This document shows positions 2 to 15,817 of a DNA stretch of 24,749 bases, one piece after another. Source of the stretch: a virus. Location: positions 1 to 24,749 of IMG/VR virus record IMGVR_UViG_3300030110_000852; one strand, written 5' to 3'. The notes beneath the pieces were generated by a model. That model saw only the letters and a program-made list of their open reading frames with translations. It did no database searches and was not told where the DNA came from. Position 1 is the first letter of the stretch; each line of letters starts with the position of its first letter. A program made the position numbers and the translations under genes.

Positions 2-1207
2 CCCACTAGTGACCATACCCAAATAGAGAAGGACTATGCCAAGACGTTTGAAGTATCTTTATCCGATGCCAAGAAAGAATTGGCTTCTAACGTAAAGAAG
101 TACGAGATAGAAGGCAAGGACATTCCTGATATGGTCAAGAGCCTACGGAATTTCAGAAGGACTCTCAAGGGAGATGAGAAGAAGGCAATCACTGTATCCA
201 TCGACAATCTAATCAAAGCCTATTCTGACCATTTAGATTCTGCCATTGATGACATCTATTGGGTTTCAAAGTACAAACCTCTTGTTAAGGAGATGAATTG
301 CACTGAGACTGATTTGATTAAACTGTCTTTAATTTCGTCAGAAGGAAAGAGAAGAGACACAATCGATTTACTCTGTAAGTATTGGGAGACAAAGTTGGAC
401 AGGCAGGATGCGGACTTCGGCCCTGAGTATGCTAGAATGGCGAAGGACATGACTAGTATGAAGAGGGAATTCAAACACAGCATAAAGAGCATGAAGATAT
501 CAAAGAGTCAGAAAGAGACAATCTTTGACCATATACTGAAATCTGTTACTGAGGAGCCGGGGATATCATCTAGGCAGATACATGAGAGATTACCAAAGAG
601 ACTCTTCAAGAAAACCTCTCCCAGCATGATATCTAAGATTGCAGTGGGGAATGACATAACTCATGTGGATGGTTCGTTCTACAAATTCAATGATGATATC
701 AAGAAGGATATCTATGCATACACTGCGGCATTCATAGACTCAGATGGATACATCACGATGGACAAGAACTACAATCCGAGAGTCGGATTGATTGCTACAG
801 GCAATCGTGGTAAGGCATTCATGTTGGAGATGAAGAAGTCCCTCGGTTGTGGAAGATTACATCTAGACCAGAAGTCACCACAGGATACCAGACCAGTGAA
901 CAGGCTGAACTTCTATTCTGCGGCAGATGTTGGAGAGATTCTTACGAAGTGCCTACCACATCTAAGACTAAAGAAGACTAATGCTGAGATACTACTTGAA
1001 TTGTTGAGGATGAAGAAGTCCCATAAGAAAGCAGATTGGTACAATGCAAGAAAGGACGAGTTGTTCAAGTTGATGAAATACGAGAATCACAAGGACAATG
1101 TTAGATACGACTTTGGTAAGTACAATATTGATATTGATACCGTAGCCAAACTACATGACAATTGTAAGATGGTTGAGATGGACAAACTAGAGGGGGTACT
1201 AGCATGA
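2..1207 (+). CDS. LAGLIDADG-type homing endonuclease-like protein with winged-helix segment, 5' truncated by window edge
   Basis: The frame is open from base 2 with no stop before 1205, so the true start lies outside the window; a TTG at 80 is the first possible internal start. The first roughly 160 residues are helical and charged. A winged-helix-like stretch follows (around 525-700, containing GISSRQIHERL). Then comes a LAGLIDADG-type motif, TAAFIDSDG at 722-748, with downstream strand and helix elements typical of a single-motif LAGLIDADG domain (GCGRLHLD, a leucine-rich helix near 985-1010). One motif per chain suggests a homodimer cutting DNA. The gene overlaps the next start by ATGA and reads as part of the operon. 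A terminase gene usually sits just upstream of a portal, so this may be a free-standing homing endonuclease next to it, or a domestic DNA-binding protein of the same fold. The family is seen in the motif; the activity is inferred. Confidence 0.7.
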   Translation, partial: PTSDHTQIEKDYAKTFEVSLSDAKKELASNVKKYEIEGKDIPDMVKSLRNFRRTLKGDEKKAITVSIDNLIKAYSDHLDSAIDDIYWVSKYKPLVKEMNCTETDLIKLSLISSEGKRRDTIDLLCKYWETKLDRQDADFGPEYARMAKDMTSMKREFKHSIKSMKISKSQKETIFDHILKSVTEEPGISSRQIHERLPKRLFKKTSPSMISKIAVGNDITHVDGSFYKFNDDIKKDIYAYTAAFIDSDGYITMDKNYNPRVGLIATGNRGKAFMLEMKKSLGCGRLHLDQKSPQDTRPVNRLNFYSAADVGEILTKCLPHLRLKKTNAEILLELLRMKKSHKKADWYNARKDELFKLMKYENHKDNVRYDFGKYNIDIDTVAKLHDNCKMVEMDKLEGVLA

Positions 1208-1557
1208 ATTGGTTTGATGTAGTTAAGGCTCCCTCACAAGAAGGCGATAGTTTTGGGACAAGGCAATATAATTTGGGTAAGGATTTAGAGACTAAACTTG
1301 TTGATATGATGGTAGAGATTACTAACAGTAATTTTGGTATTAATGCAACAAGAGAGTCTTTTTTCAAATTCAGCAACAATCGCTTGCCAACGGGATTCAC
1401 AGATTATGGATATCCCGCTAGTGGTAGAAAAATCAGTGAGGGTGGAGTTCCGCTCCATCATATAACAGACAAGATTGAAAAAGCCATTTTTAATTATGTT
1501 AGCAATTATGAGCAGGAATTGAAAGAAAAATACAAATTGGAGAGGGATAGTCAATGA
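1204..1557 (+). CDS. Small protein with N-terminal W-tag (MNWFDVVK), unknown function
   Basis: 117 residues. The start at 1204 overlaps the previous stop (ATGA) and has a strong GAGGGGGT ribosome site six bases upstream. It begins with MNWFDVVK, the first of a series of shared tryptophan tags in this window. The body is mixed alpha/beta, with a C-terminal amphipathic helix rich in Lys and Glu (around residues 85-117). I do not recognise a family. The next gene starts inside its stop codon (ATGA), so translation is probably coupled. From the tag and its place next to the portal I infer a minor capsid-associated or packaged protein. Confidence 0.8.
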   Translation: MNWFDVVKAPSQEGDSFGTRQYNLGKDLETKLVDMMVEITNSNFGINATRESFFKFSNNRLPTGFTDYGYPASGRKISEGGVPLHHITDKIEKAIFNYVSNYEQELKEKYKLERDSQ

Positions 1558-1757
1558 GTTGGTTTAATGTCTTGAAGAAGAAGGGCAAGTCCAAGGTGAA
1601 TCAGGCTGGTAATTATACTAAGCCCGGTATGAGGAAGAAACAGTTTCAGAGAATCAAAGCGGGGAGTAAAGGTGGCCCTGCTGGGAAGTGGTCAGCACGT
1701 AAGGCACAGATGTTAGCCCAAGCCTACAAGAAAGCAGGTGGTGGCTATCGTGACTGA
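1554..1757 (+). CDS. Small basic W-tagged protein, resembles a WSARKAQ-type family of marine viruses
   Basis: 67 residues, strongly basic. It starts with the tag MSWFNVLK, followed by a lysine-rich linker. The body carries the pattern K-x-x-x-x-x-I-K-A-G-S-K-G-G, then GKWSARKAQ, then an aromatic and glycine ending (AGGGYRD). I recall this body as a small conserved family found in many marine phages and giant viruses (possibly the group named DUF5872; the name is from memory and not checked). Its function is unknown; the charge suggests nucleic acid binding. The start overlaps the previous stop, and a GAGAGGGAT ribosome site lies just upstream. It is the first of three consecutive small basic tagged genes. 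Confidence 0.8.
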   Translation: MSWFNVLKKKGKSKVNQAGNYTKPGMRKKQFQRIKAGSKGGPAGKWSARKAQMLAQAYKKAGGGYRD

Positions 1758-2022
1758 TTGGTTTACAACTCTCAAGGCCAAGAAGAAGACACAACAGGAC
1801 TTGGCTACTTGGACAAAAGAGGAGTGGGGAAGCCAAGAGCAACACCGTAAAAAGGAGAAAGGAAAGGAAGCACCTTCCAAAACCAAAGGAAGATACATGC
1901 CTAAGAGAAAATACCAGTCTACTCCAAAAAAGACCTTAGACTATCAGGATAGTAAGAAAAGAAAAGGTCGTAAGAAAGGCAAGCAACATGTCCCAACAGG
2001 AAAGAAGTTCTCTCAGAGGTGA
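1750..2022 (+). CDS. Very basic W-tagged small protein (GTG start)
   Basis: 90 residues from GTG at 1750. Other in-frame GTGs at 1738 and 1741 would add four or three residues. I chose 1750 because it puts MTDWFTTLK at the N-terminus, as in the neighbouring tagged proteins, and leaves an eight-base overlap with the previous gene. The rest is dominated by Lys, Arg, Gln and Ser with few hydrophobic residues, so it is probably disordered and nucleic acid binding. No known domain recognised. It ends five bases before the next gene, whose ribosome site overlaps this stop codon. Confidence 0.72.
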   Translation: MTDWFTTLKAKKKTQQDLATWTKEEWGSQEQHRKKEKGKEAPSKTKGRYMPKRKYQSTPKKTLDYQDSKKRKGRKKGKQHVPTGKKFSQR

Positions 2023-2026
2023 TATC

Positions 2027-2314
2027 ATGGATTGGTTCGACGTTCTCAAGAAAAAGAAGAAGCCCTTCAAGGGATACAACAAGAAAATCCATGCGAGAAC
2101 AGGAGGACTGAGTGCCAAAGGGCGGGCTAAGTTCAAGCGTGAGACTGGTGCGAATCTAAAGAAGCCAGTCACCACTAAGCCTAGTAAATTGAAACCCGGA
2201 AGCAAGGCCGCTAAGAGGAGAAAGTCATTTTGTTCTAGGTCAAGGGGGTTCAAGCGGGATGATGGCACTTATAGCGAGAAGGCTAGAGCGGCAAGGCGCA
2301 GGTGGAATTGCTAA
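2027..2314 (+). CDS. Basic W-tagged protein with C-terminal KRRKSFC...RWNC family signature
   Basis: 95 residues. The start at 2027 (MDWFDVLK) is preferred over the upstream in-frame ATG at 1988 because GAGGTGAT lies directly before it and it places the tag at the N-terminus. After a run of lysines comes a segment GGLSAKGRAKFKRETG, then SKLKPGSKAAKRRKSFCSRS, and a C-terminal RRRWNC. I recall this as a widespread small family in marine phages and giant viruses (I believe DUF6321; from memory, not checked), usually without the W-tag. The two cysteines in the conserved parts (SFC and WNC) are typical of that family. Its role is unknown; DNA compaction or packaging is a guess. The stop and the portal start share a base (TAATG). 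Confidence 0.8.
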   Translation: MDWFDVLKKKKKPFKGYNKKIHARTGGLSAKGRAKFKRETGANLKKPVTTKPSKLKPGSKAAKRRKSFCSRSRGFKRDDGTYSEKARAARRRWNC

Positions 2315-3960
2315 TGGCAGAAAAAAGAAGATTTTCAATAGCGCGACTATTCAGAGACACTACCCCTAAACCGGAAGACAGACAGGTATTCAATCCGGGG
2401 ATTCAGGAAAAAGACACTTCTTATTTCCTCACTACTCCCATCATATACAACCTAGCGAAGCAGTCTACTATTGTCAGGACATGCACTACCCAACTCAAAC
2501 AAGAGATATTCCGAAGAGGGTATATTTGGGAAGAAGCGTTTGTCTCTCAGTGTAATGAATGTGGAAACAGTCATCAGAGTCCAGTAGACCAATGTGTTGA
2601 TTGTGGTTCTACTGATTTGAGGAAACCAGACAAGAATCAACTAAAGTACGCTCACAAGTTCCTAGAACAACATGTAAACAAATCAGAGCAACTCTTTATT
2701 GATGTACTCAAGGAACTAGAAGATGACCTGAATATTATTGATGATGCATATCTAGTGATGGTCAAGGAATACTACTTGGATAACAACAACAACATAAAGA
2801 TGCACAGAATCAAGGAAATATACAGAGGTGACCCTGTAACTTTCCACCTATACACAGATGACGTTGGACAGAGAGGAGTAAAGGGATTCACCTGTCTTAG
2901 ACACCGAAACCAAATTACACAGGACAAGCACGAATGCTGTGAAGAATGTGGAAGTGCAATGTTCCCTGTCCATTACGTCAACAGAGTCAAGGGAGAGGAG
3001 CAGTATTTTATTGAGGGGGAAGTTCTGCATTTCAGCAAGTACTCTCCGTCTAGATTGTATGGTACTTCACCGATAATCACCCTATGGAACAACGTCACTA
3101 CGCTAATGGCAATGGAGAACTATGTCAACTCATCTTACACCAAGGCTAGAATGCCAAGGGGATTACTAGCAGTGCAGACTAGGAACATCGATTCGATGAA
3201 GTCATTTTGGCGAGGGGTCAAGGAGAAAATTGAGCAAGACCCTCACTTCATACCAGTGATGGGAATAGAAGCAGAGAATGGTAAAGGCTCTGTTGAGTGG
3301 ATTAATTTTATGAACACTCTGAAAGAGATGGACTACATCGCTGTCAAGGAAGACTTGCGAGATAGGATTGCCGCATTCTATGGAGTCAGTAAAATCTTCA
3401 TGGCAGATAACTCTGCTAGTGGTGGGTTGAACAACGAAGGCATGCAGATACTCGTAACCAACAGAGCGGTCGAGATGGCACAGACGATTTGGAACAACTA
3501 CGTCTTCCCGTTTATGACTCTAGAGTTCGGCATTACCGATTGGAAACTCAAACTGCCGCCATCAGAAGAAGAAGATGAGATTGCTAAACTGAGGAAGAGG
3601 GAGATAGAGGTCAACGTCGCAGGAGCCATCAAGAACCTAGGCTTTGAGGTTGACATGGACGACGAAGGCAGATTCACCTACTACAAACCAGAACCAAAAG
3701 AAGACCCCAATGCAGAACAAGGAGCAGAAGGGGAATTTCAGTTGGACCCATACGCAGGTACGGATATCGACCAATCACAATTAGGTCAAATGATGGAAGC
3801 CGGAACAAGACCAACAGCCGAGCAAGCAGGAAAACCTGCGACTGTGAAAGGCAGAAACAAACCTAGCATGAGCGAGGGTCCAGATAAGAGATTCACAGGT
3901 TTACCGAAGGAGGCAGGTAATCGCAATGTCGATAGGCGGACAGAGAGGCGGGTCGGTTGA
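2314..3960 (+). CDS. Portal protein with two embedded zinc ribbons
   Basis: 548 residues from ATG 2314 (TAATG overlap; AGGTGG eight bases upstream; an in-frame GTG at 2302 is the alternative). Portals form the dodecameric DNA entry ring of the prohead and dock terminase and connector. Family features: a strand and loop near residues 235-254 (GEVLHFSKYSP followed by LYGTSPI), a long helical stem, the segment FYGVSKIFMADNSASGG (355-371) before a conserved NNEG, and an acidic low-complexity C-terminal tail after residue 420. Unusual for a portal are two cysteine clusters: C80-x2-C83 with C94-x2-C97, and C194-x2-H197 with C209-x2-C212, consistent with two zinc ribbons in the wing region. Its place upstream of protease and capsid genes supports the call. 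It is very likely a portal; the zinc binding is inferred from spacing only. Confidence 0.85.
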   Translation: MAEKRRFSIARLFRDTTPKPEDRQVFNPGIQEKDTSYFLTTPIIYNLAKQSTIVRTCTTQLKQEIFRRGYIWEEAFVSQCNECGNSHQSPVDQCVDCGSTDLRKPDKNQLKYAHKFLEQHVNKSEQLFIDVLKELEDDLNIIDDAYLVMVKEYYLDNNNNIKMHRIKEIYRGDPVTFHLYTDDVGQRGVKGFTCLRHRNQITQDKHECCEECGSAMFPVHYVNRVKGEEQYFIEGEVLHFSKYSPSRLYGTSPIITLWNNVTTLMAMENYVNSSYTKARMPRGLLAVQTRNIDSMKSFWRGVKEKIEQDPHFIPVMGIEAENGKGSVEWINFMNTLKEMDYIAVKEDLRDRIAAFYGVSKIFMADNSASGGLNNEGMQILVTNRAVEMAQTIWNNYVFPFMTLEFGITDWKLKLPPSEEEDEIAKLRKREIEVNVAGAIKNLGFEVDMDDEGRFTYYKPEPKEDPNAEQGAEGEFQLDPYAGTDIDQSQLGQMMEAGTRPTAEQAGKPATVKGRNKPSMSEGPDKRFTGLPKEAGNRNVDRRTERRVG

Positions 3961-4079
3961 GCAGACTGCTTGACGCGGCAAGGAAATGGAAAGAAGAGAT
4001 TGACAAATTGAATGCGGAGACAGATGAGAGAATCAGATTATTTGTGGAGGAAGGAATATGGAATGGCAAAAAATATTGA
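3957..4079 (+). CDS. Short helical protein, 40 residues, TTG start
   Basis: A 40-codon frame starting at TTG 3957 that overlaps the portal stop (TTGA), with the G-rich GAGGCGGGTCGG immediately upstream. The product begins SRLLDAARKWKEEIDKLN and is a single charged amphipathic helix with an aromatic end (IWNGKKY). It fills the gap between the portal and the next small gene and overlaps that gene by 22 bases. The evidence is position, an overlapping start and helix-like composition. It could be spurious, but otherwise this stretch would be noncoding in a genome with almost no spacers. Confidence 0.5.
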   Translation: MSRLLDAARKWKEEIDKLNAETDERIRLFVEEGIWNGKKY

Positions 4080-4177
4080 AGTTGACAGAAAAGCAAAAGA
4101 AAAATCTTGATGTGGATGATGATGGAGACATTGACGCAAAGGATTTCAAAGAACTAAGGAGGAAAAAAGATGAGTGA
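4058..4177 (+). CDS. W-tagged 39-residue protein with one EF-hand/dockerin-like calcium loop
   Basis: ATG at 4058 follows GGAGGAAGGA. The product begins with the tag MEWQKILK, then a lysine-rich helix (TEKQKKN), then DVDDDGDIDAKD and the helix FKELRRKK. The 12-residue loop has Asp at positions 1, 3, 5, 9 and 12, Gly at 6 and Ile at 8, which fits a canonical EF-hand or dockerin calcium loop apart from Asp instead of Glu at 12. The stop overlaps the next start by eight bases. One EF-hand would normally pair with another, so the protein may dimerise or dock onto a partner. The coding call is strong despite its length, because tag, ribosome site and motif agree. Confidence 0.78.
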   Translation: MEWQKILKLTEKQKKNLDVDDDGDIDAKDFKELRRKKDE

Positions 4178-4394
4178 TAAAAGCGTAAGACAATTGGAAA
4201 GAGAGTTAAAGGCCGCTAGGATAGAAGAGAGAAGAGAGCAGAAGAACAGGATAGAGAAGAATCGAGACTATTCTGTTGGTGGCATCGACAAGGATACCAC
4301 AGTGGAGAAGAAGATACCATCCTCTGCTGACATCCCTGATGTAATCATACTTCCCAAGAAGTCCAAGAACAGAAAAGAGAACATCCCATTCTAG
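4170..4394 (+). CDS. Small charged protein, unknown
   Basis: 74 residues from ATG 4170, preceded by an AAGGAGG site and overlapping the previous gene. The first 30 residues form a charged helix (heptad-like, rich in Arg and Glu). A flexible middle and a short hydrophobic stretch, IPDVIILPKKSK, follow near the C-terminus. No tryptophan tag and no recognised domain. It lies inside the cluster of small head-region genes; a structural or assembly accessory role is inferred from position only. Confidence 0.72.
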   Translation: MSDKSVRQLERELKAARIEERREQKNRIEKNRDYSVGGIDKDTTVEKKIPSSADIPDVIILPKKSKNRKENIPF

Positions 4395-4403
4395 GTGAGT
4401 GAG

Positions 4404-7070
4404 ATGATACTTCTGAAAGCGGACACTAAGTACGACAAGAAACTTAGGACTGCTATTGGAAAACTTGATGGAAAACAGAAAAAAAAGTTTGATGAAGAAG
4501 TCAAAAAAAGAATGGAAGCATGGACTAGGGATTACATTGCTGGAAAGACTGCTCCATTCATGGATGACATAATATCTGGTAGAGAAAGGATTCCACCAGA
4601 ATACCAGAAGAAATATGATAAATTAAAAGATACAATAGAAGAGCAACTCAAGTATCCGGGCATCAGTAAACTAACTGCAACAAAAGACGACTTGTTCGAT
4701 GATGAGTTTGATGTTGCTGACTTAAGCATAGGTGACATCACCATTGATTTCGATGATGTAATCAATAGAAATCAATTGAAGAAACTATGGATAGAGAAGA
4801 CCAAAGGGGCAGACAAGAAGTTTCCAGATGTTAAGACGGCAGACTACGATTATCTTGTAGAATATGATGAAGATGACGAGGAACCAAGTGATTACACATA
4901 TGAGTCTAGAAGAAGAAAGTTTTTTCCTTTTAAGAAATCAATTAGTGATGTAGAATACAAGAGCAAGTATTCCAAGGAGGCTCTCAAAGCCCCTAAGAAA
5001 AAGAAAGGTGAATCTGCTGAGGATTTTGCAAGGCGCAAGAAAGAACACAAGGAACTAAAGTTTGAATTTAAAGCAGAGAAGGAGAATTGGGAAGAGTATG
5101 TCGATAGTTTTGGTAAGAGATATCCTGAATATGTAGAGAACATCATTGAGGATTCCGTATCAAATCAATCTAAATTTAGAAATGCCGTTATGATGGACTT
5201 TCAGAAAAAAATGACAGAATTGCTGAAAGACACTAGTGCATATGATGCCAAGAAGGTAAAGTCACAATACCAATCCAAGAAACTCGCAGAGATGCTTGTG
5301 AAGAACGAATCAATGAGAAAACTACTTGAGGAGATTAGTCGAAAGGAACTAGCCCCTCCTCAAGATAAGGTAGATGCAAAAAGGAAGAGAGTAGAGAAAG
5401 CGGTTTACCTAGGTTTGTCTGGTACGGAAATACCTGTCCCTGATAACGCCATGAGAGATTGGGTAAGAGACAGCAATCTAAGAAGAGAGTTCCTAGATGC
5501 TAGAAGCAAGAATCAATCTGAGGTCACTTTGGAGAATGAAGTTGAAGAGTATAATGATTTGATAAACACATTATTCGACCCGAAGAGAGCAAAGTACTTG
5601 AGAGATAGAGGTAAAATAGAGAGTAGAAAACAAGTCATAGGAAGCAAGAAGGGTGCTGAGACTGAAATCAGAAAATATCTGAGCAAGGAGTTTGGAGTAA
5701 AGGGTATAGCCATAAAACAAAGTGGCAGGGACATTATTATAGAATTCTCAGACAGGTCAGAAACCCGACAAGAGAATATTGAAAAGGTCAAAAGAGCATT
5801 GAATGCTCAGGCTAGATATGAATCAGCACCAGATTCAGGGAAAGTGGTAGCAGGTAGAGAAAGAAAATTACAGAGGGAGGCTGTTGCGGCATACGAGAGG
5901 ATATCTCCAAAAGTAAGAGATTTACTCAAGAAACTACTCTACAAGGGTAAAGTTGCGAAGGATGCCATAGACCTGAGTGAGTTGTTCATCACCAAGGACA
6001 GTGAATGGAACGGAACCTCATGGGACAATCCAGTAGTGAGAGAAGATGCAAATGGTATGGAAGCCACTGAGATGATGAAAGATATTATGGAATCGGCTGG
6101 CGAGGACAGGATGAAACCACCAAGGAAGGTGAAGGAGATAGATGTCGCTAGGAGAAAGGGTAGATTCGTACAGGATGTACAAGGCGAGGATAGAGGTTTA
6201 ACTAACATTGAATTACTTGTAAAAAATAAGCCTAAGTATGATACGATTAGGAAGACCTTGGTTTTCTTAGAAGATGAGATTGAGGACAACGTAAAACTTC
6301 TTGACCGTCGTAAGAAAGTCGAAGGAGCAGGAGAATTAATCAAAACACAATTAAAGGGAGTTGCTAATGTTGTTGCTTATTCCCAAATAAGTAGGAGAAA
6401 CCAGATTGGTCGTAAAAAGTACCGTGGTATGAAGAAGATAATACAACAACTGCAAGAACTCAAGGGTGATTTTAACGCAGAATTGCAAATGCCACTTGTT
6501 ACTACAACAGAAGAACAAAGTCAACAGGATAGAAAGGCGAAGGCAATAGCAAGAAAATATGATAGGAATTCCAAGAGGTTATTTGATGATTTTGGACAAG
6601 CAGAAGATGTTGAACTTACTAGTCCCGGTGGTGAGCAGAAAGGCAAATCTCCATTTAGAGGTTCATTGAAACAAGACCTACTTTCACATGCTACTAAGAT
6701 TGACTTTGATTTAGACGAGGCTATAGAAAGAAGTGAATATGAAATAAGGAGAACAGAATCCACCCTAGTCCCACTGAATGATTCTGATTTTAAACCGATT
6801 ATCGAAGAATTCAATCGCCTTTACGAGTCATTACAGAAAATAATTGCAAATCCTACTGATTACATAGAGTCGTTTGATAAGGACAAACCCGAAGATAAAC
6901 CTAGATTAAGAAGGCGTAGGAAAGGCACTGAGCAATCTGCTAAAACCATAGCCCAAGAGAAGAAGAAACTTGTAGCGCAATTGAAAGAGAAGAATCCCAA
7001 AATGAGTCTTGCACAAATAGAGGACATGGCAACTCAACAACTACAGGAAAAAATGAACAAGCCTAATTAG
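4404..7070 (+). CDS. Large charged helical protein, unknown (possible internal head protein)
   Basis: 888 residues from ATG 4404, where GGTGAG lies five bases upstream; GTG 4395 would add three residues. It begins MILLKADTK, close to the ILKAD tag of the gene at 7092, and soon after has GKQKKKFDEE, matching that gene's DKQKKKIKKL. The protein is rich in Lys, Glu, Asp and Arg with long predicted helices and several arginine/lysine-rich linkers (near residues 170-215 and 855-870). A small alpha/beta stretch occurs around residue 435 (GIAIKQSGRDIIIEFSD). It has no transmembrane segment, signal peptide or enzyme motif that I can name. Position between portal and protease, size and tag-like N-terminus suggest an internal head or ejected protein. 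The DNA is more AT-rich than the capsid genes. Confidence 0.75.
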   Translation: MILLKADTKYDKKLRTAIGKLDGKQKKKFDEEVKKRMEAWTRDYIAGKTAPFMDDIISGRERIPPEYQKKYDKLKDTIEEQLKYPGISKLTATKDDLFDDEFDVADLSIGDITIDFDDVINRNQLKKLWIEKTKGADKKFPDVKTADYDYLVEYDEDDEEPSDYTYESRRRKFFPFKKSISDVEYKSKYSKEALKAPKKKKGESAEDFARRKKEHKELKFEFKAEKENWEEYVDSFGKRYPEYVENIIEDSVSNQSKFRNAVMMDFQKKMTELLKDTSAYDAKKVKSQYQSKKLAEMLVKNESMRKLLEEISRKELAPPQDKVDAKRKRVEKAVYLGLSGTEIPVPDNAMRDWVRDSNLRREFLDARSKNQSEVTLENEVEEYNDLINTLFDPKRAKYLRDRGKIESRKQVIGSKKGAETEIRKYLSKEFGVKGIAIKQSGRDIIIEFSDRSETRQENIEKVKRALNAQARYESAPDSGKVVAGRERKLQREAVAAYERISPKVRDLLKKLLYKGKVAKDAIDLSELFITKDSEWNGTSWDNPVVREDANGMEATEMMKDIMESAGEDRMKPPRKVKEIDVARRKGRFVQDVQGEDRGLTNIELLVKNKPKYDTIRKTLVFLEDEIEDNVKLLDRRKKVEGAGELIKTQLKGVANVVAYSQISRRNQIGRKKYRGMKKIIQQLQELKGDFNAELQMPLVTTTEEQSQQDRKAKAIARKYDRNSKRLFDDFGQAEDVELTSPGGEQKGKSPFRGSLKQDLLSHATKIDFDLDEAIERSEYEIRRTESTLVPLNDSDFKPIIEEFNRLYESLQKIIANPTDYIESFDKDKPEDKPRLRRRRKGTEQSAKTIAQEKKKLVAQLKEKNPKMSLAQIEDMATQQLQEKMNKPN

Positions 7071-7091
7071 CGAGGTAAGGGTGGGACAAGT

Positions 7092-7415
7092 ATGAGTTGG
7101 CAATCTATTCTCAAAGCCGACTCTGTTCTAGATAAGATGGGTGACAAGCAGAAGAAGAAAATTAAGAAACTCCTGCAAGCCTCACAACCAACCGAGATGT
7201 TCGGTAAGGACATGACCAGACTATCTGACCTGATAGACGAACTGAGTGGCGTTGACTTCGTTAAGTCAAACAAGGCACTACAGAAGAAAGTCACTAAGTT
7301 TGAGGAAAAGAATTTAGACATCATGGCTTCTGCCGCAGAACTGAGGAAGGACTACGAGACACTTTACTTGCAGATTAGAGAACAGATATATCCGAAGAAG
7401 AAGGGGGATAAGTAG
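7092..7415 (+). CDS. W-tagged helical protein (MSWQSILKAD)
   Basis: 107 residues with the ribosome site GGGTGGGA upstream of ATG 7092. The N-terminus is MSWQSILKADSVL, followed by a basic helix, DKQKKKIKKLLQ, and then two more charged helices with heptad character (around residues 45-95). The tag plus KQKKK arrangement also occurs at 4058 and, without the tryptophan, at 4404. No catalytic motif is visible. Probably a small coiled-coil protein of the head region. Confidence 0.78.
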   Translation: MSWQSILKADSVLDKMGDKQKKKIKKLLQASQPTEMFGKDMTRLSDLIDELSGVDFVKSNKALQKKVTKFEEKNLDIMASAAELRKDYETLYLQIREQIYPKKKGDK

Positions 7416-7416
7416 G

Positions 7417-7929
7417 ATGAAAAATGATTGGTTTAACATGCTAAGGAAAAACTACGTGCCTAGTTTTTATCAACAGTCACAGGATGCTCAGGCGGAAAAT
7501 GAATATAACGAAACGATGGAAGAAGCAAATCAAAAAAACCGAGCCAAGCAAAGTATGAGAGGTGCTAGGAACAGACTAGGATTAGGGCAAAGACTACTCG
7601 GAGAAGGTCGTTCTGCTGACAAAGAAATACAAGAATTGCGTGGCGAAGAAAAGGATTTGAAACATCAGGCTAGTATTATGAGAAGAAATATAGACGAAGG
7701 TAGAGCGAGAGGATTTCCACACAGAAGGGAAGTCATGGAAAGACCTACTATCTTGGAGGGTGTTGAAGACATGAATTCACTCAGTACAATGGGCCAAAAT
7801 TTTACCAACTTCCCACCGTCAGACGCAAATGAAGCAAGTCGTTCTGCTGACCAACGAACTAGACAACGAAGTAGAGGGGATGCACCAGAAGCAATGGAAA
7901 ACTTTAGACCGAGTTGGATGGGGAGATGA
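7417..7929 (+). CDS. W-tagged Arg/Glu/Gln-rich protein (MKNDWFNMLRK)
   Basis: 170 residues starting one base after the previous stop, with GGGGGAT upstream. It begins MKNDWFNMLRKN, a variant of the tag with two extra residues. The body is highly charged, rich in Arg, Glu, Gln and Asn, and probably coiled coil (around residues 20-90) followed by a disordered tail. The short segment RSAD occurs twice, encoded by the same 14 bases (gtcgttctgctgac, near 7607 and 7838), a small internal repeat. It ends SWMGR. No family recognised; a head-associated role is inferred. Confidence 0.75.
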   Translation: MKNDWFNMLRKNYVPSFYQQSQDAQAENEYNETMEEANQKNRAKQSMRGARNRLGLGQRLLGEGRSADKEIQELRGEEKDLKHQASIMRRNIDEGRARGFPHRREVMERPTILEGVEDMNSLSTMGQNFTNFPPSDANEASRSADQRTRQRSRGDAPEAMENFRPSWMGR

Positions 7930-7934
7930 GTAAG

Positions 7935-8198
7935 ATGAGTTGGGAAAACATACTAAAATTCGATTTCTCAGGTGACATGGATGGGACAGCCGCAAATATG
8001 GACAGAGAAAACTCTGACAGAATCGCCGAGTATACCAAGGCTAAAGGCTTCTTGGAGGGAGATATCGCCAATGTCATTAGTGAACTACAGGAATTAAAAG
8101 AGAGGATGGAAAGTGGACAGTCTATTGATAACTATAGCACTGATAAAATGAAACAACTCAGCGATGCACTAGGAAAGGTAAGCGTAATACTACAATGA
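7935..8198 (+). CDS. W-tagged small acidic protein (MSWENILK)
   Basis: 87 residues. Three in-frame ATGs exist (7914, 7926, 7935). I chose 7935 because GGGGAGATGAG lies at normal distance and the product then begins with the tag MSWENILKFDF. The remainder is two acidic helices (around residues 25-85) that look like a coiled-coil hairpin. Start 7926 (ATGA overlap with the previous stop) is a close alternative and adds three residues. No known family. The next gene follows after nine bases. Confidence 0.75.
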   Translation: MSWENILKFDFSGDMDGTAANMDRENSDRIAEYTKAKGFLEGDIANVISELQELKERMESGQSIDNYSTDKMKQLSDALGKVSVILQ

Positions 8199-8207
8199 GA
8201 TGATAAA

Positions 8208-8438
8208 ATGAGCGAAGAACAAAATGAAATGTTAGTTCTACTGAAAGAACTAGTAGACAAGGTGAAGAATCTAGAACAAGCAGTGTACAACAAGGACAAC
8301 CTACTGATGAAGTCAGGCTTCGTTGTTGCAGACTCCCCAACACCATCTATGGGTAGCAACGATGATATGCCAAGTGGCGATGTCATAGCGAAGATGGATT
8401 GGGAAGACATACACAAGATAGTCGAGACAATGGGGTGA
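8208..8438 (+). CDS. Small coiled-coil protein with scaffold-like C-terminal W-E-D-I-H motif
   Basis: 76 residues with GAGATGAT upstream of ATG 8208. The first 30 residues are a leucine-heptad helix (LLKELVDKVKNLEQ). A flexible proline and glycine-rich linker follows, then the C-terminal motif MDWEDIHKIVE at 8394-8426. The same plan, coiled coil then linker then SWDDIH, forms the end of the scaffold encoded at 11877-12569. This suggests a mini-scaffold, or a protein using the same docking site on the capsid protein. The similarity is seen in the sequence; the function is inferred. Confidence 0.75.
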   Translation: MSEEQNEMLVLLKELVDKVKNLEQAVYNKDNLLMKSGFVVADSPTPSMGSNDDMPSGDVIAKMDWEDIHKIVETMG

Positions 8439-8442
8439 TTAG

Positions 8443-8676
8443 ATGCCGGAGAAAATAAACAAAGAAGAGATGCTTGTCCACGCAACAATAGACAAGGCCA
8501 AGAAAGTAATTCAGGAAGCAAACAAGTTAGGCATCCTTGAGAACAAAGACCCTGTGATGGGAGAAGAGGTCAAAGTGAAGAGGCCCAACAAGAACCCCAA
8601 AGAAGAGAAGGTCGATAATCCAGTATCAACTGATGATATTAACTCAGGATACGGACTTGCTGGCGGTACTAACTAA
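8443..8676 (+). CDS. Small hydrophilic protein, unknown
   Basis: 77 residues with a clear GGGGTGAT ribosome site upstream of ATG 8443. There is an N-terminal helix (EEMLVHATIDKAKKVIQEAN) followed by a lysine, proline and asparagine-rich disordered tail ending GLAGGTN. No tag and no recognised domain. It is the last gene of the small-gene cluster before the ligase. Confidence 0.68.
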   Translation: MPEKINKEEMLVHATIDKAKKVIQEANKLGILENKDPVMGEEVKVKRPNKNPKEEKVDNPVSTDDINSGYGLAGGTN

Positions 8677-8692
8677 GGGGGCATGTTGTTGA

Positions 8693-11290
8693 ATGCCCAT
8701 ATCTGGACTTGAATTTGAGAAGGAGACAGAAGACCTAACGAAAGAGGTCTTGGATTTCTTTGAGAAAGTCCGATACGCATACCTGTCTGCTAGGAACAAC
8801 CCATCGGAGTATTCCGATGATTGGGCTGACAGTGTGGAACACATCAAAGACAAGTATGATTCCCTAAGTGACTTCTCCTCTGAGTTGAAGGATTATGTTG
8901 ATGAGAAGTTAGTCTTCGACAAAGGAGCCAAGAAGCCACAATCCGTTGAGGCCAAGAAACTGTTTGAGGCTGTCAAGGACATGAGGTTCAGGTCAGATAA
9001 GGTGACTGACCCGTTCTCCAAGAAGTTCGGGGAGGATGATGTGATACCTACCATGTTGGAGAACGAGTCTATCCTTATTGCATTCTTACATTACGCATTA
9101 CGCTCACATTCCAAAGCACTGCCTGACAAGGCATGGGATACCAAGAACTTAGATTCTGATGAGATAACTGATGGGTTCATGGGACTGGACTTGGATGAGG
9201 ATGACTTGGGACTCTACATCATAGAGCATTATGGCAAGGAAGACGAGGACAACAAGAGAATAGAATCCAAAGTCAAGAACGGGTTGAAGACGTTGAAGGA
9301 AATGTTCCTGAGAGAATACGAGAAGCCTAAGTGGGACAACTTACTGGAAGTCGATATAAAAAAAGAAGAGAAGAGCGATGAGGAGAAGGCTGAGATTGAC
9401 TTCATCGTTCCCAACAAACCAATGTATAGAATCTTTGAATTAGAAGACATGGAGAGCATAAAGGGTCTTTCCGGTGACTTTCTAGTGCAGGAGAAGTACG
9501 ACGGAATGCGAATTCAACTTCACAAGAAGGGAGAGAGCATCAAGGTTTACTCGTACAACAAGAAGGATATCTCAGATGCATGCAAGGAGCAGATAAAGAA
9601 ACTCAAGGAGAAGCAGTTTGGTGATTGCATATTAGATGCTGAACTGGTTCTGTTCGATGGTGACGAGCCATTGCATAGGGCAGATACGATAACTCACGTA
9701 TTCAAGAAGAAGAAGGGAGGGCAACTCAGAGCGCATGTGTTTGACATTATGCACCATGAGGGAACCGACCTACATAGCGAACCTCTGAGAGAGAGAATCA
9801 ATACGCTTCTCTATCAGTTCAGCCAACACTCCTCCGAGCAACTAGCCTTCCCATCCAAGAAGGATACAAGGATGGCTGATTCGATTAAGGAAGTCGGTGA
9901 ATATGCTAAGGACATAATGGAACTACCTGCCTCCGAAGGTGTCCTGATAAAAGACCTAGAGTCTACCTATTACATAGGAAACAGAAAGAATCCCAAGTGG
10001 ATTAAGTGGAAGAAGTTCGTTGACTTGGATGTTATAGTACTCGATAAGAAGTCCACTAAGAGCGGTATGAAGTCATACACCCTAGGTGTTGGCCCTGTCA
10101 CTGCTGAGGTTGCGAGAACCTACAAGACCACTGAGTATAATGACAAAGAGTACCTTCCAGTTGGCAAGGCACTGAACACCAAAGAGAATGTGGATGTCGG
10201 AAGTATAGTCAGAGTCAAGGTCGATGAGGTGAAGAAGAACAAGCAAGGCTTCACCCTGTACTCTGCTAAACTGATAGAGATACCAGAGGTCGATTCATCT
10301 GACAAGGTTGAGACTTTGGAGCAACTTGCAAGTAAGACGAAGAAATCCTTGTCGTCTGACGCTGGTGAGGCAATTAGCAGTCTTAACCCATTCAAACTAG
10401 TCAGCGGCGTAACTCAGTCTACGAACAATCAGAAGAAGGTGAAGAAAGGATTCTTCATCACCGATGGAATACATGGTGAGGCAGAGGTAATTGCCAAGAG
10501 CGATTTTGATGGATTTACAATCTATGGATTTGATGGTGACTCTCTAATGGTAAAGAATGCCCTTTACAACATAGATGTCTGGAAGAATGAGATGGAGGCT
10601 CTCGTTAAATCCAGAAGGTCTGAATTGAGAATCGCAATCCGTAATGAAATCATAGAGACATATGATAACAAGAAGACACCATTCGGTAAGATAGTAGAAT
10701 TCGTGAAGAAGGAATATCCAGAGATATTTGAGGATGTATTCAACTCCTCTGATGAGAGTCTGATGGGATGGATGAAGGAGCAGGAGAGTCTTAGATACCA
10801 TCATCCCAACAAGTTTACCGCATTGGATGATGTATTGGAGAAGGATGTTGAGGAACCAGAGGTTTCCAAGGTTGACTCTGGTAGATTCAGCATCATGCTC
10901 AGAGAAGATGGCAATCTGGACTTCATCTTGAAACTAGATGAATCTAGGAATTTCTGGATGATTGATATTACAGAACTGGACGACGTATACGATTTGTTCG
11001 GTAAGTCACAGAAGTTCCCTGCTATTGTCGGTAAGGACTTAGGCCCACATAGAAAGGAGATAGATTCTGGTGATGTCGAACTAGGAGTTCAGCGCGAAGG
11101 CTATCACGAATACAAGATTACAGGAGATAAGTTCGATACTAGATTCCATGTTAGAGTTGTACCACTAGATGAGAAGAAAACTTGGGTAGTCTGGACAGGT
11201 AAGAAGCAAGAGATGTTAGACTTAGACTCAGATGAGAATCTGTGGGATATCACAGAAGACAAATATGCAAAATTAGAACTTCCAGAGTAA
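8693..11290 (+). CDS. ATP-dependent DNA ligase with extra N- and C-terminal domains
   Basis: 865 residues; phage and archaeal ligases are usually 350-600. It seals nicks in duplex DNA by a lysine-AMP intermediate. The nucleotidyltransferase core spans roughly residues 240-445. It holds motif I KYDGMR with catalytic K268, DAELVLFDG (315-323), AHVFDIMHHEG (347-357), motif IV SEGVLIKD (414-421) and motif V KWIKWKK (435-441). An OB-fold follows (about 442-530). The first 210 residues are helical and unlike the usual DNA-binding domain. They end in KPKWDNLLEVDI, which echoes the W-tag. Residues 585-865 form an added region with a helical part and a beta-rich end (730-840), which I do not recognise. 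Its place inside the head operon is odd. The ribosome site is weak. The core call is firm; the extra domains are unassigned. Confidence 0.93.
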   Translation: MPISGLEFEKETEDLTKEVLDFFEKVRYAYLSARNNPSEYSDDWADSVEHIKDKYDSLSDFSSELKDYVDEKLVFDKGAKKPQSVEAKKLFEAVKDMRFRSDKVTDPFSKKFGEDDVIPTMLENESILIAFLHYALRSHSKALPDKAWDTKNLDSDEITDGFMGLDLDEDDLGLYIIEHYGKEDEDNKRIESKVKNGLKTLKEMFLREYEKPKWDNLLEVDIKKEEKSDEEKAEIDFIVPNKPMYRIFELEDMESIKGLSGDFLVQEKYDGMRIQLHKKGESIKVYSYNKKDISDACKEQIKKLKEKQFGDCILDAELVLFDGDEPLHRADTITHVFKKKKGGQLRAHVFDIMHHEGTDLHSEPLRERINTLLYQFSQHSSEQLAFPSKKDTRMADSIKEVGEYAKDIMELPASEGVLIKDLESTYYIGNRKNPKWIKWKKFVDLDVIVLDKKSTKSGMKSYTLGVGPVTAEVARTYKTTEYNDKEYLPVGKALNTKENVDVGSIVRVKVDEVKKNKQGFTLYSAKLIEIPEVDSSDKVETLEQLASKTKKSLSSDAGEAISSLNPFKLVSGVTQSTNNQKKVKKGFFITDGIHGEAEVIAKSDFDGFTIYGFDGDSLMVKNALYNIDVWKNEMEALVKSRRSELRIAIRNEIIETYDNKKTPFGKIVEFVKKEYPEIFEDVFNSSDESLMGWMKEQESLRYHHPNKFTALDDVLEKDVEEPEVSKVDSGRFSIMLREDGNLDFILKLDESRNFWMIDITELDDVYDLFGKSQKFPAIVGKDLGPHRKEIDSGDVELGVQREGYHEYKITGDKFDTRFHVRVVPLDEKKTWVVWTGKKQEMLDLDSDENLWDITEDKYAKLELPE

Positions 11291-11301
11291 TTTTGCATGT
11301 T
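11262..11301 (+). terminator. 14-bp inverted repeat spanning the ligase stop codon
   Basis: ATGCAAAATTA (11265-11275) and its exact reverse complement TAATTTTGCAT (11288-11298) flank a 12-base loop. Counting one G-T pair and two further A-T pairs, the stem reaches 14 bp (11262-11275 with 11288-11301). The ligase stop codon lies in the right arm. It is AT-rich and lacks a clear T run after it, so it may be a weak terminator, an mRNA 3'-end stabiliser or a protein-binding site. Confidence 0.5.
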
Positions 11302-11304
11302 ATG

Positions 11305-11312
11305 TTAAATAG
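11305..11312 (+). promoter_or_regulatory. Possible archaeal TATA-box-like promoter before the protease-capsid genes
   Basis: TTAAATAG lies 40 bases upstream of the protease start at 11352, in a 61-base spacer following the inverted repeat. The spacing fits a TATA box with transcription starting about 25 bases downstream and a short leader. It separates the ligase from the highly expressed capsid genes. AT-rich words like this occur by chance, so this is only a candidate. Confidence 0.3.
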
Positions 11313-11351
11313 TAAGACTTTACACTTTTGGGAGTGTTAGTTTCAGGAGAC

Positions 11352-12569
11352 ATGCTACTAAAGGCAGAAAACAACAATGAATTTAAGATTCTAAAAGCAG
11401 ATGAACTGGTCATAGGAGGATATGCATCAATAGAAATGGTCGATAAGCAAAACGACATGATTACCCTTAGTGCATTAGATGAAGCAGTCAAACAATACAT
11501 GGTAGATAAGAAGTACAGAAACGTAATGTCAAATCATTCAAATGTTCAAGTCGGGGAGGTAATCGAGAAATATCGAGACAAAAACGGAACTCTACACAAG
11601 ACTACAGTAGATGACGTTGGGTTCTATGTCGTAATCAAAATGAGAGATGACATAGAAAAGGCAAAAGAAATTTCACGAAACATCCGAAAAGGAACACTTA
11701 GGTCATTTAGTATAGGAGGACAGGCAATTTCTAAGAAGCAGAGAACATCTGACGAACATGGAGAGTACAACGAGATAGACCGTTTGGAATTACATGAAGT
11801 CACAATCTGCGAGAAGGGAATTAATCCAGAAGCGAAATTCGACATTTTGAAAAGAGATGTTGGAGGTGAAAAACAAATGAGTGAAAAATTGGAAAAAGCA
11901 CTTGAGGAATTGAACGACTTGATGAAGCAGGTCGGACAAATCAGCAAGGAAGAAGATGATGAAGTGGAGGACCAGTACATGAAAGAATCACCAGAAGGTG
12001 AGAATGAAATGGAAGATATGGAACCTACCATGAAGGAAGAAAGCGAAGATGACGATGAGAACTTGGACGGCGAGAAGAAGGGTCTACCCGGCGGCGATGA
12101 CGCACCTACCGAGGCTGAAGGAAACGAAGCCGGAGAGGAAGTTGTTACTGGTGGAACACCCACGGCCTCTCCAAAGGCTCTCTCTGTTAGCAAGGGACTA
12201 GAGGACAGTGATTTCACTACCCTCAATTTGACTGCTGAGAATGTCGAGAAGGCATACGAGGCATTCAAGGCCGAGCAACTGGAGAAGATGGCGTATGAGA
12301 ACCTAAGCAAGACTTTTGCTACGAGGTTCGCAGACGAACTCGATGTCAAGAAGTCCACGGCTGAGAGAGCAGAGTACGATGCTCGCGACGACGTTGCTGG
12401 ACTAAAGGCAGAGTTTGCAGAACTACGCAAGTCTCTTACCGAGCAAGATGATGATATTCGTAAGGCACAGGAAGTCGCCTTTGGTATCCCTGAAGGGTTC
12501 CCAACAACTGTTGAGGAAGCCGGAGAGATGTCATGGGATGATATCCATAACCTAACGAGGGGCAACTAG
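11352..12569 (+). CDS. Prohead maturation protease (HK97/U35-like) fused to scaffold
   Basis: 405 residues from ATG 11352, preceded by AGGAGA; TTG 11328 is an in-frame alternative. The protease, residues 1-170, carries NHSNVQVGEV (likely catalytic H62), LRSFSIGG (likely nucleophile S118 or S120) and ELHEVTICEKGINPEAKFD (147-165), the usual order for HK97-type serine proteases. These enzymes digest the scaffold and trim capsid proteins inside the prohead. The C-terminal 230 residues are an acidic coiled-coil scaffold ending in MSWDDIHNLTRGN. It starts MLLKAE and repeats ILKADE at residues 13-18, both like the tags on other proteins. The nested start at 11877 probably makes the scaffold alone. 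The major capsid gene follows after 13 bases. Confidence 0.87.
   Translation: MLLKAENNNEFKILKADELVIGGYASIEMVDKQNDMITLSALDEAVKQYMVDKKYRNVMSNHSNVQVGEVIEKYRDKNGTLHKTTVDDVGFYVVIKMRDDIEKAKEISRNIRKGTLRSFSIGGQAISKKQRTSDEHGEYNEIDRLELHEVTICEKGINPEAKFDILKRDVGGEKQMSEKLEKALEELNDLMKQVGQISKEEDDEVEDQYMKESPEGENEMEDMEPTMKEESEDDDENLDGEKKGLPGGDDAPTEAEGNEAGEEVVTGGTPTASPKALSVSKGLEDSDFTTLNLTAENVEKAYEAFKAEQLEKMAYENLSKTFATRFADELDVKKSTAERAEYDARDDVAGLKAEFAELRKSLTEQDDDIRKAQEVAFGIPEGFPTTVEEAGEMSWDDIHNLTRGN
11862..11869 (+). promoter_or_regulatory. Internal Shine-Dalgarno site for the nested scaffold start
   Basis: GGAGGTGA, matching eight bases of the usual 16S rRNA 3'-end complement, sits seven bases before an in-frame ATG at 11877. 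It is the longest ribosome-site match I found in the window, and it lies inside a coding region exactly at the protease-scaffold boundary. Confidence 0.75.
11877..12569 (+). CDS. Scaffold protein from nested in-frame start
   Basis: 230 residues beginning MSEKLEKALEELNDLMKQ, in frame with the protease and sharing its stop. Scaffolds direct capsid protein into a closed prohead and are then degraded. The sequence shows an N-terminal coiled coil, a very acidic flexible region (around residues 22-85), a second long helical part with heptads (about 120-195) and a C-terminal capsid-docking candidate, SWDDIH. The strong internal ribosome site supports separate translation, as for the lambda C/Nu3 pair. 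Codon choice becomes more GC-rich from about 12060 onward, similar to the capsid gene, which fits high expression. The nested start is inferred from sequence alone. Confidence 0.75.
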   Translation: MSEKLEKALEELNDLMKQVGQISKEEDDEVEDQYMKESPEGENEMEDMEPTMKEESEDDDENLDGEKKGLPGGDDAPTEAEGNEAGEEVVTGGTPTASPKALSVSKGLEDSDFTTLNLTAENVEKAYEAFKAEQLEKMAYENLSKTFATRFADELDVKKSTAERAEYDARDDVAGLKAEFAELRKSLTEQDDDIRKAQEVAFGIPEGFPTTVEEAGEMSWDDIHNLTRGN

Positions 12570-12582
12570 GAGTTGATGAAAG

Positions 12583-13953
12583 ATGACAGGATATATTAAG
12601 ACGATGAAAGACCTAGAAGCGGCAACCTACGGACTACGTGGAAGTTCCGCTCTATTGAAGAGTGCCGGAATTGTTGGAGGATTTGGAACTCCTCACGACG
12701 ACGCTTCCGGAAACCCGTTTAGCGGCAGTGCGGCCTCTAACTTGGGCGACCTATACAACGTTCTCTACGGACAGAAAGTTTGGTCGATGCTAAACCAAGA
12801 GGTAAACGCGCTATCGATTATGGCTAAGAGGCCATACACCTCTAGCGGGTGGAGAGTGCTAAAGAGCCGACCTCAAGGTGGCTCTGGAAGTTCATTCGGT
12901 ATTGGTACAGGAGCAGTCGGCTCCGCCGCACCAAAGGCTGACCTAATTGGTGGAGTGCCTGAGAATGAGTCTCTTAGCAACATCTCTGCACTAGCACCTG
13001 AGTATGCTAAACTCTACATCAGCCCAAAGACCGTTGCTCACAAGTTTGAGTTCTCGGAACTTGGTATGGAACTAGCCGCTATTGACGACGGTGTTGGTGA
13101 CATCAGGGCTATTGTCCGTGAGGACATGGGTAAGCATCACGCAGAGTCGCAGAACGTTATGCTACTGATGCCTCTTGAGAAGATGAGTGACCTACAGGGC
13201 GCAACTAACTCTGACAGGAACTACACTTCTCTGATGAAGATAGTTTCATCGGCAAGTGAGATTGGACAGATGTACCTAGACAACGTTACCGAACTAGGAG
13301 CAGATGACTCTGGTACGCCAGCAGTATCCGCCGAACTAACAAGAATCTTCGGAGATGTCAGGCCAGTAGCAATTGGAGGTTCGCACGGAAGCGAGACTGC
13401 AACTGCAACTGCCACTTTCCTAGATGCAGAGGTTGACTTCGGTACAGGATACGCAGATGGAACCGCAAGGGTTCTGACTCTCTCCATACTGAACGACATG
13501 ATTAGGAGAATCAGGCAGAACGGTGGAAGCCCCAAGGTAATGATAACTGGATACGATACCATCCAGCACATATCTGACCTACTACAGAGCCAAGAGAGGT
13601 TTATGGACAGGAAGGAGATTGTCCCAACCCACAACGGCGTTAGGGGTCCAAAGGGTGCAGAGGTCGGCTTCAGGGTCGCAACCTACTACGACATACCCAT
13701 CATCCCAGCAAAGGACATGCCATCAACTGGTCTGTCAACAAGCAACAGGCTGACTGACATCCTACTGCTAGACACTGACCATCTGTGGCTATCAGTGATG
13801 AAGCCTACTCAGTACTTTGAGGATGGTATTTCCAACGGCAACCCATTCGGTGTTGGCAAGTTGGGTAACCAAGGGCTGTACAGGACAATGGGCGAGACTG
13901 CTTGCTCCTTCTTCAAGGGACAAGGTAAGATTACCAACCTAAAGAGTGCTTGA
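12583..13953 (+). CDS. Major capsid protein, HK97 fold
   Basis: 456 residues. It forms the icosahedral shell. It directly follows the protease/scaffold gene, the standard order. Supporting features are an N-terminal helical segment (about residues 1-27), a glycine-rich loop region (about 85-115), a long central helix containing VREDMGKHHAESQNVMLLMP (residues about 178-198), a variable insertion near 245-290 and a C-terminal beta part with FRVATYYDIPIIPAKDMPS, typical of the P-domain to A-domain end. The sequence ALLKSAG at residues 23-29 resembles the tag endings elsewhere and could be a protease site that removes a short delta domain. Codon use is more GC-rich than in flanking genes, consistent with high expression. 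An AGGAG site lies ten bases upstream of the ATG. Confidence 0.85.
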   Translation: MTGYIKTMKDLEAATYGLRGSSALLKSAGIVGGFGTPHDDASGNPFSGSAASNLGDLYNVLYGQKVWSMLNQEVNALSIMAKRPYTSSGWRVLKSRPQGGSGSSFGIGTGAVGSAAPKADLIGGVPENESLSNISALAPEYAKLYISPKTVAHKFEFSELGMELAAIDDGVGDIRAIVREDMGKHHAESQNVMLLMPLEKMSDLQGATNSDRNYTSLMKIVSSASEIGQMYLDNVTELGADDSGTPAVSAELTRIFGDVRPVAIGGSHGSETATATATFLDAEVDFGTGYADGTARVLTLSILNDMIRRIRQNGGSPKVMITGYDTIQHISDLLQSQERFMDRKEIVPTHNGVRGPKGAEVGFRVATYYDIPIIPAKDMPSTGLSTSNRLTDILLLDTDHLWLSVMKPTQYFEDGISNGNPFGVGKLGNQGLYRTMGETACSFFKGQGKITNLKSA

Positions 13954-14846: not shown

Positions 14847-15158
14847 ATGGCAGTTTCAGGATGTCTATCAAGTGGGGTATTTGCTTCTAGCAAACTAGTC
14901 TCTTCACAGAGAACCAAGTTAGTTAGTATCCACGTAACATCGAATGCAAATGCCGCTAATATCATCAAGGTGTTCGATAGCAGTGATGCTAGTGCTTCGG
15001 GTGATGTGGAGATTGTCAGGATAAACACTCGTTCGGACAATAGCGGTACTAACGTGTTCAACCAAGAGTATGACATGCATGGGGTAGTGGCGGCTAAGGG
15101 ACTATGGGTTGAAATAACAGGTAGTGGTTCTGTCGCGGTAACGGTAACCTTTGTGTGA
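14847..15158 (+). CDS. Small beta-rich structural protein, likely virion-associated
   Basis: 103 residues from ATG 14847, after GAGTGAGTGAT; GTG 14841 would add two residues. The sequence is beta-rich with Ser, Val, Ala and Asn, and carries SSKLVSSQRTKLVSIHVTSN, then ANIIKVFDSSD. I recall similar short proteins in structural modules of marine phages, but no family name. A small beta-sandwich decoration or connector accessory is likely. Its stop is followed closely by the first membrane-protein gene. Confidence 0.6.
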   Translation: MAVSGCLSSGVFASSKLVSSQRTKLVSIHVTSNANAANIIKVFDSSDASASGDVEIVRINTRSDNSGTNVFNQEYDMHGVVAAKGLWVEITGSGSVAVTVTFV

Positions 15159-15162
15159 TATT

Positions 15163-15576: not shown

Positions 15577-15592
15577 TGAGGGAGTGATGTGA

Positions 15593-15817
15593 GTGGTCAG
15601 CGAAATCCTATTTGGAATGGATGAGTCAACTCTCGCATATGACTTACAACGAGCGCACTCTGCTGACATCTGGTTTCTAAGGGCTAGGTTTTGGTTTTGG
15701 GGAATAATATCCTGTCTCTCTAGTTTTGTAATAGGACAGGCATTTGCCATAGCGGGTTTGAATACTCTGTCTATTGCATGGAACGGCTTAACAGATTTCT
15801 GGAATCATCTGTGGTGA
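15593..15817 (+). CDS. Small single-pass membrane protein
   Basis: 74 residues from GTG 15593, with a GAGGGAGTGAT ribosome site. There is one aromatic-rich hydrophobic segment at about residues 33-58 (FWFWGIISCLSSFVIGQAFA), and the C-terminus is again tryptophan-rich (DFWNHLW). The stop lies inside the ribosome site of the GTPase gene, so the two are probably translated together. Size and topology would fit a holin or a membrane anchor for the GTPase. Function unknown. Confidence 0.68.
   Translation: MVSEILFGMDESTLAYDLQRAHSADIWFLRARFWFWGIISCLSSFVIGQAFAIAGLNTLSIAWNGLTDFWNHLW

Follow-up and report, generated by a model that had tools for sequence, protein, structure and literature searches.

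The 24,749-nucleotide stretch of viral DNA considered here (positions 1 to 24,749 of IMG/VR record IMGVR_UViG_3300030110_000852; "the window") raises a simple question. Why do eight otherwise unlike proteins begin with the same short tryptophan-containing sequence, and why do two more proteins, the prohead protease-scaffold and a small coiled-coil protein, end with a version of it? The original prediction for this DNA was that the sequence is a tag that targets or docks many cargo proteins to the capsid. All ten motifs are in frame and lie where they were predicted. The eight N-terminal ones were said to read W-x-x-[IVML]-L-K; five of them do so strictly, and the other three are near variants (WFDVVK, WFTTLK and WFNMLR). 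As described below, we consider it probable that magroviruses use this short linear motif for capsid targeting, as a helical tag carried by cargo, scaffold and core protein.

The window is a fragment of a magrovirus, i.e., a tailed virus of Poseidoniales. The Magrovirales, viruses of these marine archaea, are defined by a capsid protein related to that of the haloarchaeal Druskaviridae, a DNA polymerase B (PolB), an ATP-dependent DNA ligase and a genome of about 90-110 kb, and they have their morphogenesis and replication modules on opposite strands (PMC12999244). The window encodes a portal protein, an S78 prohead protease-scaffold fusion, a major capsid protein of the SU10 type with relatives in haloviruses HCTV-1 and HVTV-1, tail proteins and an ATP-dependent DNA ligase. 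As it is only a 24.7-kb fragment, the strand layout, PolB and genome size were checked on relatives. About 480 IMG/VR stretches encode relatives of the window capsid protein, and 12 near-complete ones (G001-G012; 90-101 kb) were read whole. In all 12 genomes the head and tail genes lie on one strand and PolB on the opposite one. The PolB matches are in two separate stretches in 10 of the 12, mostly in different open reading frames (ORFs; about 550-576 and about 305 amino acids), which suggests a split or interrupted polymerase.

Within these 12 genomes, each of which has about 5-24 tagged genes, the tag is confined to the head region. It is present in 120 of the 809 genes on the capsid strand versus 4 of the 736 on the replication (PolB) strand (Fisher p ~1e-30). 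On the capsid strand itself, the tag marks 118 of the 462 genes within 35 kb upstream of the capsid gene versus 2 of the 323 downstream, where the tail genes lie; the upstream region is the head module, with portal, ligase and scaffold. The expectation that short proteins starting with the motif would be enriched near the portal and capsid genes of relatives was thus borne out. Cellular genomes contain chance matches only: the canonical pattern, searched as DNA, occurs just 37 times in 84,980 of them, almost always away from plausible gene starts, and not once in the Poseidoniales records. The motif is therefore not equally common in replication or host genes, and the tag idea survived this comparison. 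The same pattern is common in viral contigs. Of the 118 loci among the matches listed, 106 are magrovirus-like and another (L394) has several tags; the remaining 11 are on unrelated contigs, several of which encode one membrane-protein family that begins MSWKEIFKD. Four loci without magrovirus-like proteins (L398, L401, L442 and L443) encode a membrane protein of about 73-88 amino acids beginning MSWK[EN]IFKD, which is a chance look-alike of the tag.

In the related IMG/VR loci, 453 distinct proteins begin with the tag, and clustering by the body behind it gives 174 families, including 109 singletons. The eight-residue consensus, M-[STND]-W-x-[DENS]-[IV]-[LIV]-K, is the sole element common to the 453 proteins; when 134 representatives are aligned, MSWxxILK stands out and no position beyond it is conserved. 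Genes were called simply as longest ORFs, and so the counts are approximate and short tagged genes tend to be missed; 116 tagged ORFs lie outside the called genes. A Pfam scan of the 134 proteins found only 33 families at E<=0.01, and the matches to the 25 of these that were listed come from one protein each, so that a single common cargo function was rejected. These single matches include EF-hand/dockerin, GNAT, PAP2 and zinc-binding domains, and most bodies have no recognisable domain. An EF-hand body had been claimed for one of the window proteins, and the 39-amino-acid protein at 4058 does match a dockerin domain.

Control searches support the motif as a real signal. Among the predicted proteins of 160 related loci, W..[IVLM][LIMV][KR] occurs 429 times within the first 10 residues, and the reversed motif never occurs there. 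Matches to an ATG-x-TGG... pattern in 14 large contigs are almost all on a single strand, and the same pattern written back to front, as a control, gave 0-1 match per genome. Circularity of the search pattern was considered and rejected: a search that fixes only M-x-W (653 unique proteins) still recovers I/V in 69% of cases three residues after the tryptophan (W+3), L/I/V in 83% at W+4 and K in 75% at W+5, and therefore the pattern is not an artefact of the search expression.

The motif is also present at the other end of two head proteins. A search of the full length of all 1545 proteins in the 12 genomes for M[STDNEAK]W..[IVL][LIVHNGM] gave 121 matches, of which 98 were N-terminal, 20 C-terminal and 3 elsewhere, and a control with W and M swapped gave 1 match. 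The 20 C-terminal matches are confined to the protease-scaffold and the small coiled-coil protein encoded upstream of the ligase. In the related loci, W[ED][DE][IVL]H lies close to a protein end (within about 10 residues) 102 times, in the same two proteins, and elsewhere 4 times. Over all loci, the distinct C-termini that carry the motif number 157 of 158 for the scaffold and 129 of 129 for the coil, so that this part of the original prediction is stronger than could be known from the window. The methionine two residues before the tryptophan is kept in 143 of the 157 scaffold copies and 128 of the 129 coil copies, where no start codon is needed, and consequently it appears to be part of the motif and not only a start codon. 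In 103 aligned protease-scaffolds W403 never varies, and few other residues of the scaffold half are invariant. Both proteins read I-H or I-N where the cargo tags have I-L-K. The I, L and K codons of the tag vary freely among synonyms, which indicates that selection acts on the peptide and not on the DNA; because of this variation and the C-terminal copies, a DNA-level cause (a common 5' sequence or a translation signal) was rejected.

What might such a peptide do? Directly before the tryptophan, 82% of the families have S, T, D or N versus 23% in the background, and at W+2 55% have D or E versus 18%; as far as can be judged from the sequences, this is the signature of a capped helix start. 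The tag would then be an amphipathic helix, capped by Ser, Thr, Asp or Asn ahead of the tryptophan, on which Trp, Ile/Val and Leu (W, W+3 and W+4) would form a single hydrophobic face. In the predicted scaffold model, a helix (residues 403-411) begins exactly at W403, after a long helical hairpin (block confidence ~80). Since the same peptide is N-terminal on cargo and C-terminal on the scaffold, one receptor is the best explanation, and we propose that the N-termini of the accessory proteins and the C-termini of the protease-scaffold and coil protein dock on it in the assembling prohead. The inner face of the capsid protein would be the most likely receptor because the scaffold carries the motif too, but portal or core proteins are possible, and we regard this choice as evenly balanced.

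An unlikely, but the best surviving, alternative is that the receptor is the portal or a core protein located there, in which case the cargo would be ejection proteins bound to the portal and not internal proteins bound to the shell. Many tagged genes do flank the portal and terminase genes, and the T4 internal proteins associate with the core (PMC9026906). However, a scaffold must normally bind the shell as well, and the motif is the most conserved end of this scaffold.

Slightly less probable than portal binding is that the tag is primarily a substrate signal for the prohead protease, in which [IV]-[LI]-K would be cut after the lysine and the tryptophan would serve recognition by the protease and not docking on the shell. 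In its favor, each border of the protease domain has an invariant ILK (residues 21-23 and 173-175) and the N-arm of the capsid protein a nearly invariant LLK, at places where maturation cleavage would be plausible. It would also fit the most widespread cargo family, that of the window protein at 7092, in which W and [FI]ILK are 3, 4 or 10 residues apart (MSWQSILKADS, MSWQYTLQKADS and MTWDYYGEGDNFILKE), like two separate elements. On the other hand, the residue after the lysine is unrestricted (K, N, E, A, R and others), the I-H and I-N copies on scaffold and coil would not be cut, and both ILK sites of the protease are edge strands in the predicted model, so that their conservation may be structural. 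As a tentative addition to the docking role we favor, the prohead protease might cut off the tag behind its lysine, and the separable W and ILK in the 7092 family hint at a docking part and a cutting part. One could then imagine, equally tentatively, a label in two parts: a docking M-x-W-x-x-I, used at the N-termini of cargo and the C-termini of the scaffold-protease and core protein, and a releasable [IL]-L-K present on cargo only. The scaffold would dock without release (I-H), the protease would cut the cargo free, and any gene that acquired the label would become virion cargo. If this were true, the magroviruses would deliver a fast-evolving set of proteins into marine archaea.

It is improbable that the tag is unrelated to capsids and instead controls the localisation, stability or translation of late gene products, or acts by binding a host factor. 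The indirect nature of the case for a capsid role leaves some room for this explanation, but the tail genes on the same late strand are untagged except for the 2 of 323 mentioned above, the tag is absent from host genomes, and the C-terminal copies on scaffold and coil would be pointless as translation signals. Shared ancestry, by which one recently diverged family has kept its N-terminus or 5' ends have been copied by DNA recombination, can be dismissed as very improbable because, although there are some tandem paralogs such as the MMWWNIIK genes of G002, the 174 families have no detectable similarity between bodies (which include the zinc-binding, EF-hand, GNAT and PAP2 matches), the codons of the tag vary synonymously and the motif recurs at C-termini.

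Several points weigh against the capsid-targeting explanation. We know of no proteomics of virions or proheads for these uncultured viruses. Four tagged genes lie on the replication strand (G001 at 68.4 kb, G003 at 3.0 kb, G007 at 66.2 kb and G002 at 13.3 kb), two of them with perfect tags (MTWEDVLK and MSWFSILK); no other gene of that strand departs from the confinement to the head region. Haloviruses HCTV-1 and HVTV-1, which have the same capsid family, have no such tag in the head genes inspected. An AlphaFold model of a natural read-through of the scaffold C-terminus into the capsid protein (L147; stop codons as Gln; 85 sequences) reproduced the HK97 fold of the capsid core, but the tag and the capsid N-arm were of low confidence, so that the model points to no receptor. 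Finally, the T4 targeting sequence has affinity for the core and not for the shell (PMC9026906).

The tagged proteins and head genes of the window are listed in Table 1.

Table 1. Tagged proteins and principal head genes of the window (aa, amino acids)
Feature	Position	Strand	Remark
N-terminal tag MNWFDVVK, 117-aa protein (1204-1557)	1204..1227	+	V, not L, at W+4
N-terminal tag MSWFNVLK, 67-aa basic protein (1554-1757)	1554..1577	+	orthologues also tagged
N-terminal tag VTDWFTTLK (GTG start), 90-aa protein (1750-2022)	1750..1776	+	non-canonical Thr at W+3
N-terminal tag MDWFDVLK, 95-aa basic protein, DUF6321 domain (2027-2314)	2027..2050	+	
Portal protein	2302..3960	+	phrog_18178, 2e-63; head-module marker, rival receptor
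N-terminal tag MEWQKILK, 39-aa dockerin/EF-hand-like protein (4058-4177)	4058..4081	+	Dockerin_1, E = 2.3e-5
N-terminal tag MSWQSILK, 107-aa protein (7092-7415)	7092..7115	+	most widespread cargo family
N-terminal tag MKNDWFNMLRK, 170-aa protein (7417-7929)	7417..7449	+	R, not K, in WFNMLR
N-terminal tag MSWENILK, 87-aa acidic protein (7935-8198)	7935..7958	+	
Conserved small protein of 76 aa, coiled coil; probably a core protein	8208..8438	+	C-terminal MDWEDIH at 8394-8414
Prohead protease (Peptidase_S78) fused to helical scaffold	11328..12569	+	C-terminal MSWDDIH at 12528-12548
Major capsid protein (SU10/HK97 fold)	12583..13953	+	favored tag receptor (inferred)

A protein of locus L198 that is similar to the window protein at 1750 begins MISSWFDMLK. 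Immediately upstream of the first tagged gene, positions 80-1207 encode a 375-amino-acid protein with a weak match to an HNH-endonuclease family (phrog_5046, residues 212-333). Between the capsid gene and the tail genes, positions 15822-16493 encode a small GTPase resembling Arf/SRPRB (weak Pfam matches), preceded by two small, apparently membrane-type proteins (15151-15817); the trio is also present in L157 and L114. Elsewhere, L166 (G002, about 0.5-3.3 kb) has tandem tagged paralogs beginning MMWWNIIK, MWWWNIIK, MMWFDILK, MMWWDIIK and MWWDILK, which suggests local duplication of cargo genes. Tagged proteins at L027:14-124 and L180:12915-13088 have small modules (CWDGYEQIGMK...VPNCVP and CAKLADKKYG...) that match portions of larger phage proteins without a known function (phrog_727 and phrog_9737).

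No earlier description of the tag was found in the open-licence full-text literature, although a report elsewhere is possible; the magrovirus survey, checked for the motif and for N-termini, does not mention either. If our explanation is correct, this would be, as far as could be found, the first general cargo-loading code in archaeal tailed viruses. Poseidoniales are among the most abundant archaea of the surface ocean, and magroviruses are abundant viruses of ocean archaea. Among the hundreds of magrovirus genes that lack annotation, those for virion proteins could then be picked out by sequence alone, and these proteins are probably injected into Poseidoniales. Moreover, scaffold and cargo apparently use one site, and so what a capsid-targeting sequence binds becomes directly testable.

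The closest known system is the capsid-targeting sequence (CTS) of phage T4. The original prediction is supported in part: the common motif, its confinement to the head region, its independence of the bodies and its presence on scaffold and coil stand on direct comparison, and the likeness to T4 is close, whereas the presence of the proteins in proheads or virions and docking on the shell are its predicted part. The cargo loaded by the T4 tags is diverse and serves to protect the genome or to gain control of the host (PMC3012670, PMC9026906). As N-terminal tags load head proteins in both T4 and P1, we infer that the magrovirus tags very probably load their proteins into the prohead. Like the T4 internal proteins, the cargo would be loaded during shell formation, retained inside and delivered with the DNA; delivery into the host cell is only slightly favored over its absence.

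Both the CTS and the magrovirus tag are N-terminal, about 10 residues long and attached to otherwise unrelated small proteins. In the T4 record ipII and ipIII begin MKTYQEFIAE and ipI begins MKTFKEFT, and the layout is the same: a capping Thr or Ser, an aromatic residue, Q/K/E, an acidic residue and two hydrophobic residues (T-Y-Q-E-F-I versus S-W-Q-D-I-L). Residues 4 and 7 of the CTS are needed for targeting, and residues 8 and 10 for processing (PMC9026906). The W and I/V of the magrovirus tag, three apart, correspond in pattern to T4 Y4 and F7, the residues that carry targeting (PMC9026906). However, the residues differ, the hosts and virus lineages are unrelated, the sequences are not homologous and no common descent is claimed. 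Magroviruses also have many more cargo families, and their motif is C-terminal on the scaffold-protease and core protein as well; no such motif was evident in the termini read of T4 gp20, gp21, gp22, gp23, gp67 and gp68. Cleavage is proven in T4, whereas tag removal in magroviruses is only a candidate step.

Other systems share some of these properties. The N-terminal signal of P1 DarB is enough to bring a reporter into the phage head, but BLAST finds no consensus among the Dar proteins (PMC9024508), whereas the magrovirus tag is a strict consensus over 174 families. The giant phage SPN3US has many head cargo proteins, and from some of them the prohead protease removes an N-terminal propeptide; the propeptides have 20-254 residues and are cleaved at A-X-E, and no short common tag is described in the portion of that work consulted (PMC10052503). 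The magrovirus tag would be a short handle for putting proteins into an HK97-fold shell, and in this it resembles the cargo-loading peptide of encapsulins, which also docks cargo inside such a shell. Encapsulin peptides differ in that they are usually C-terminal, serve one or a few cargo enzymes and are not shared with a scaffold. Taken with the T4 layout, the magrovirus tag suggests that T4-like and magrovirus heads have converged on the same arrangement of a helix for loading their internal proteins.

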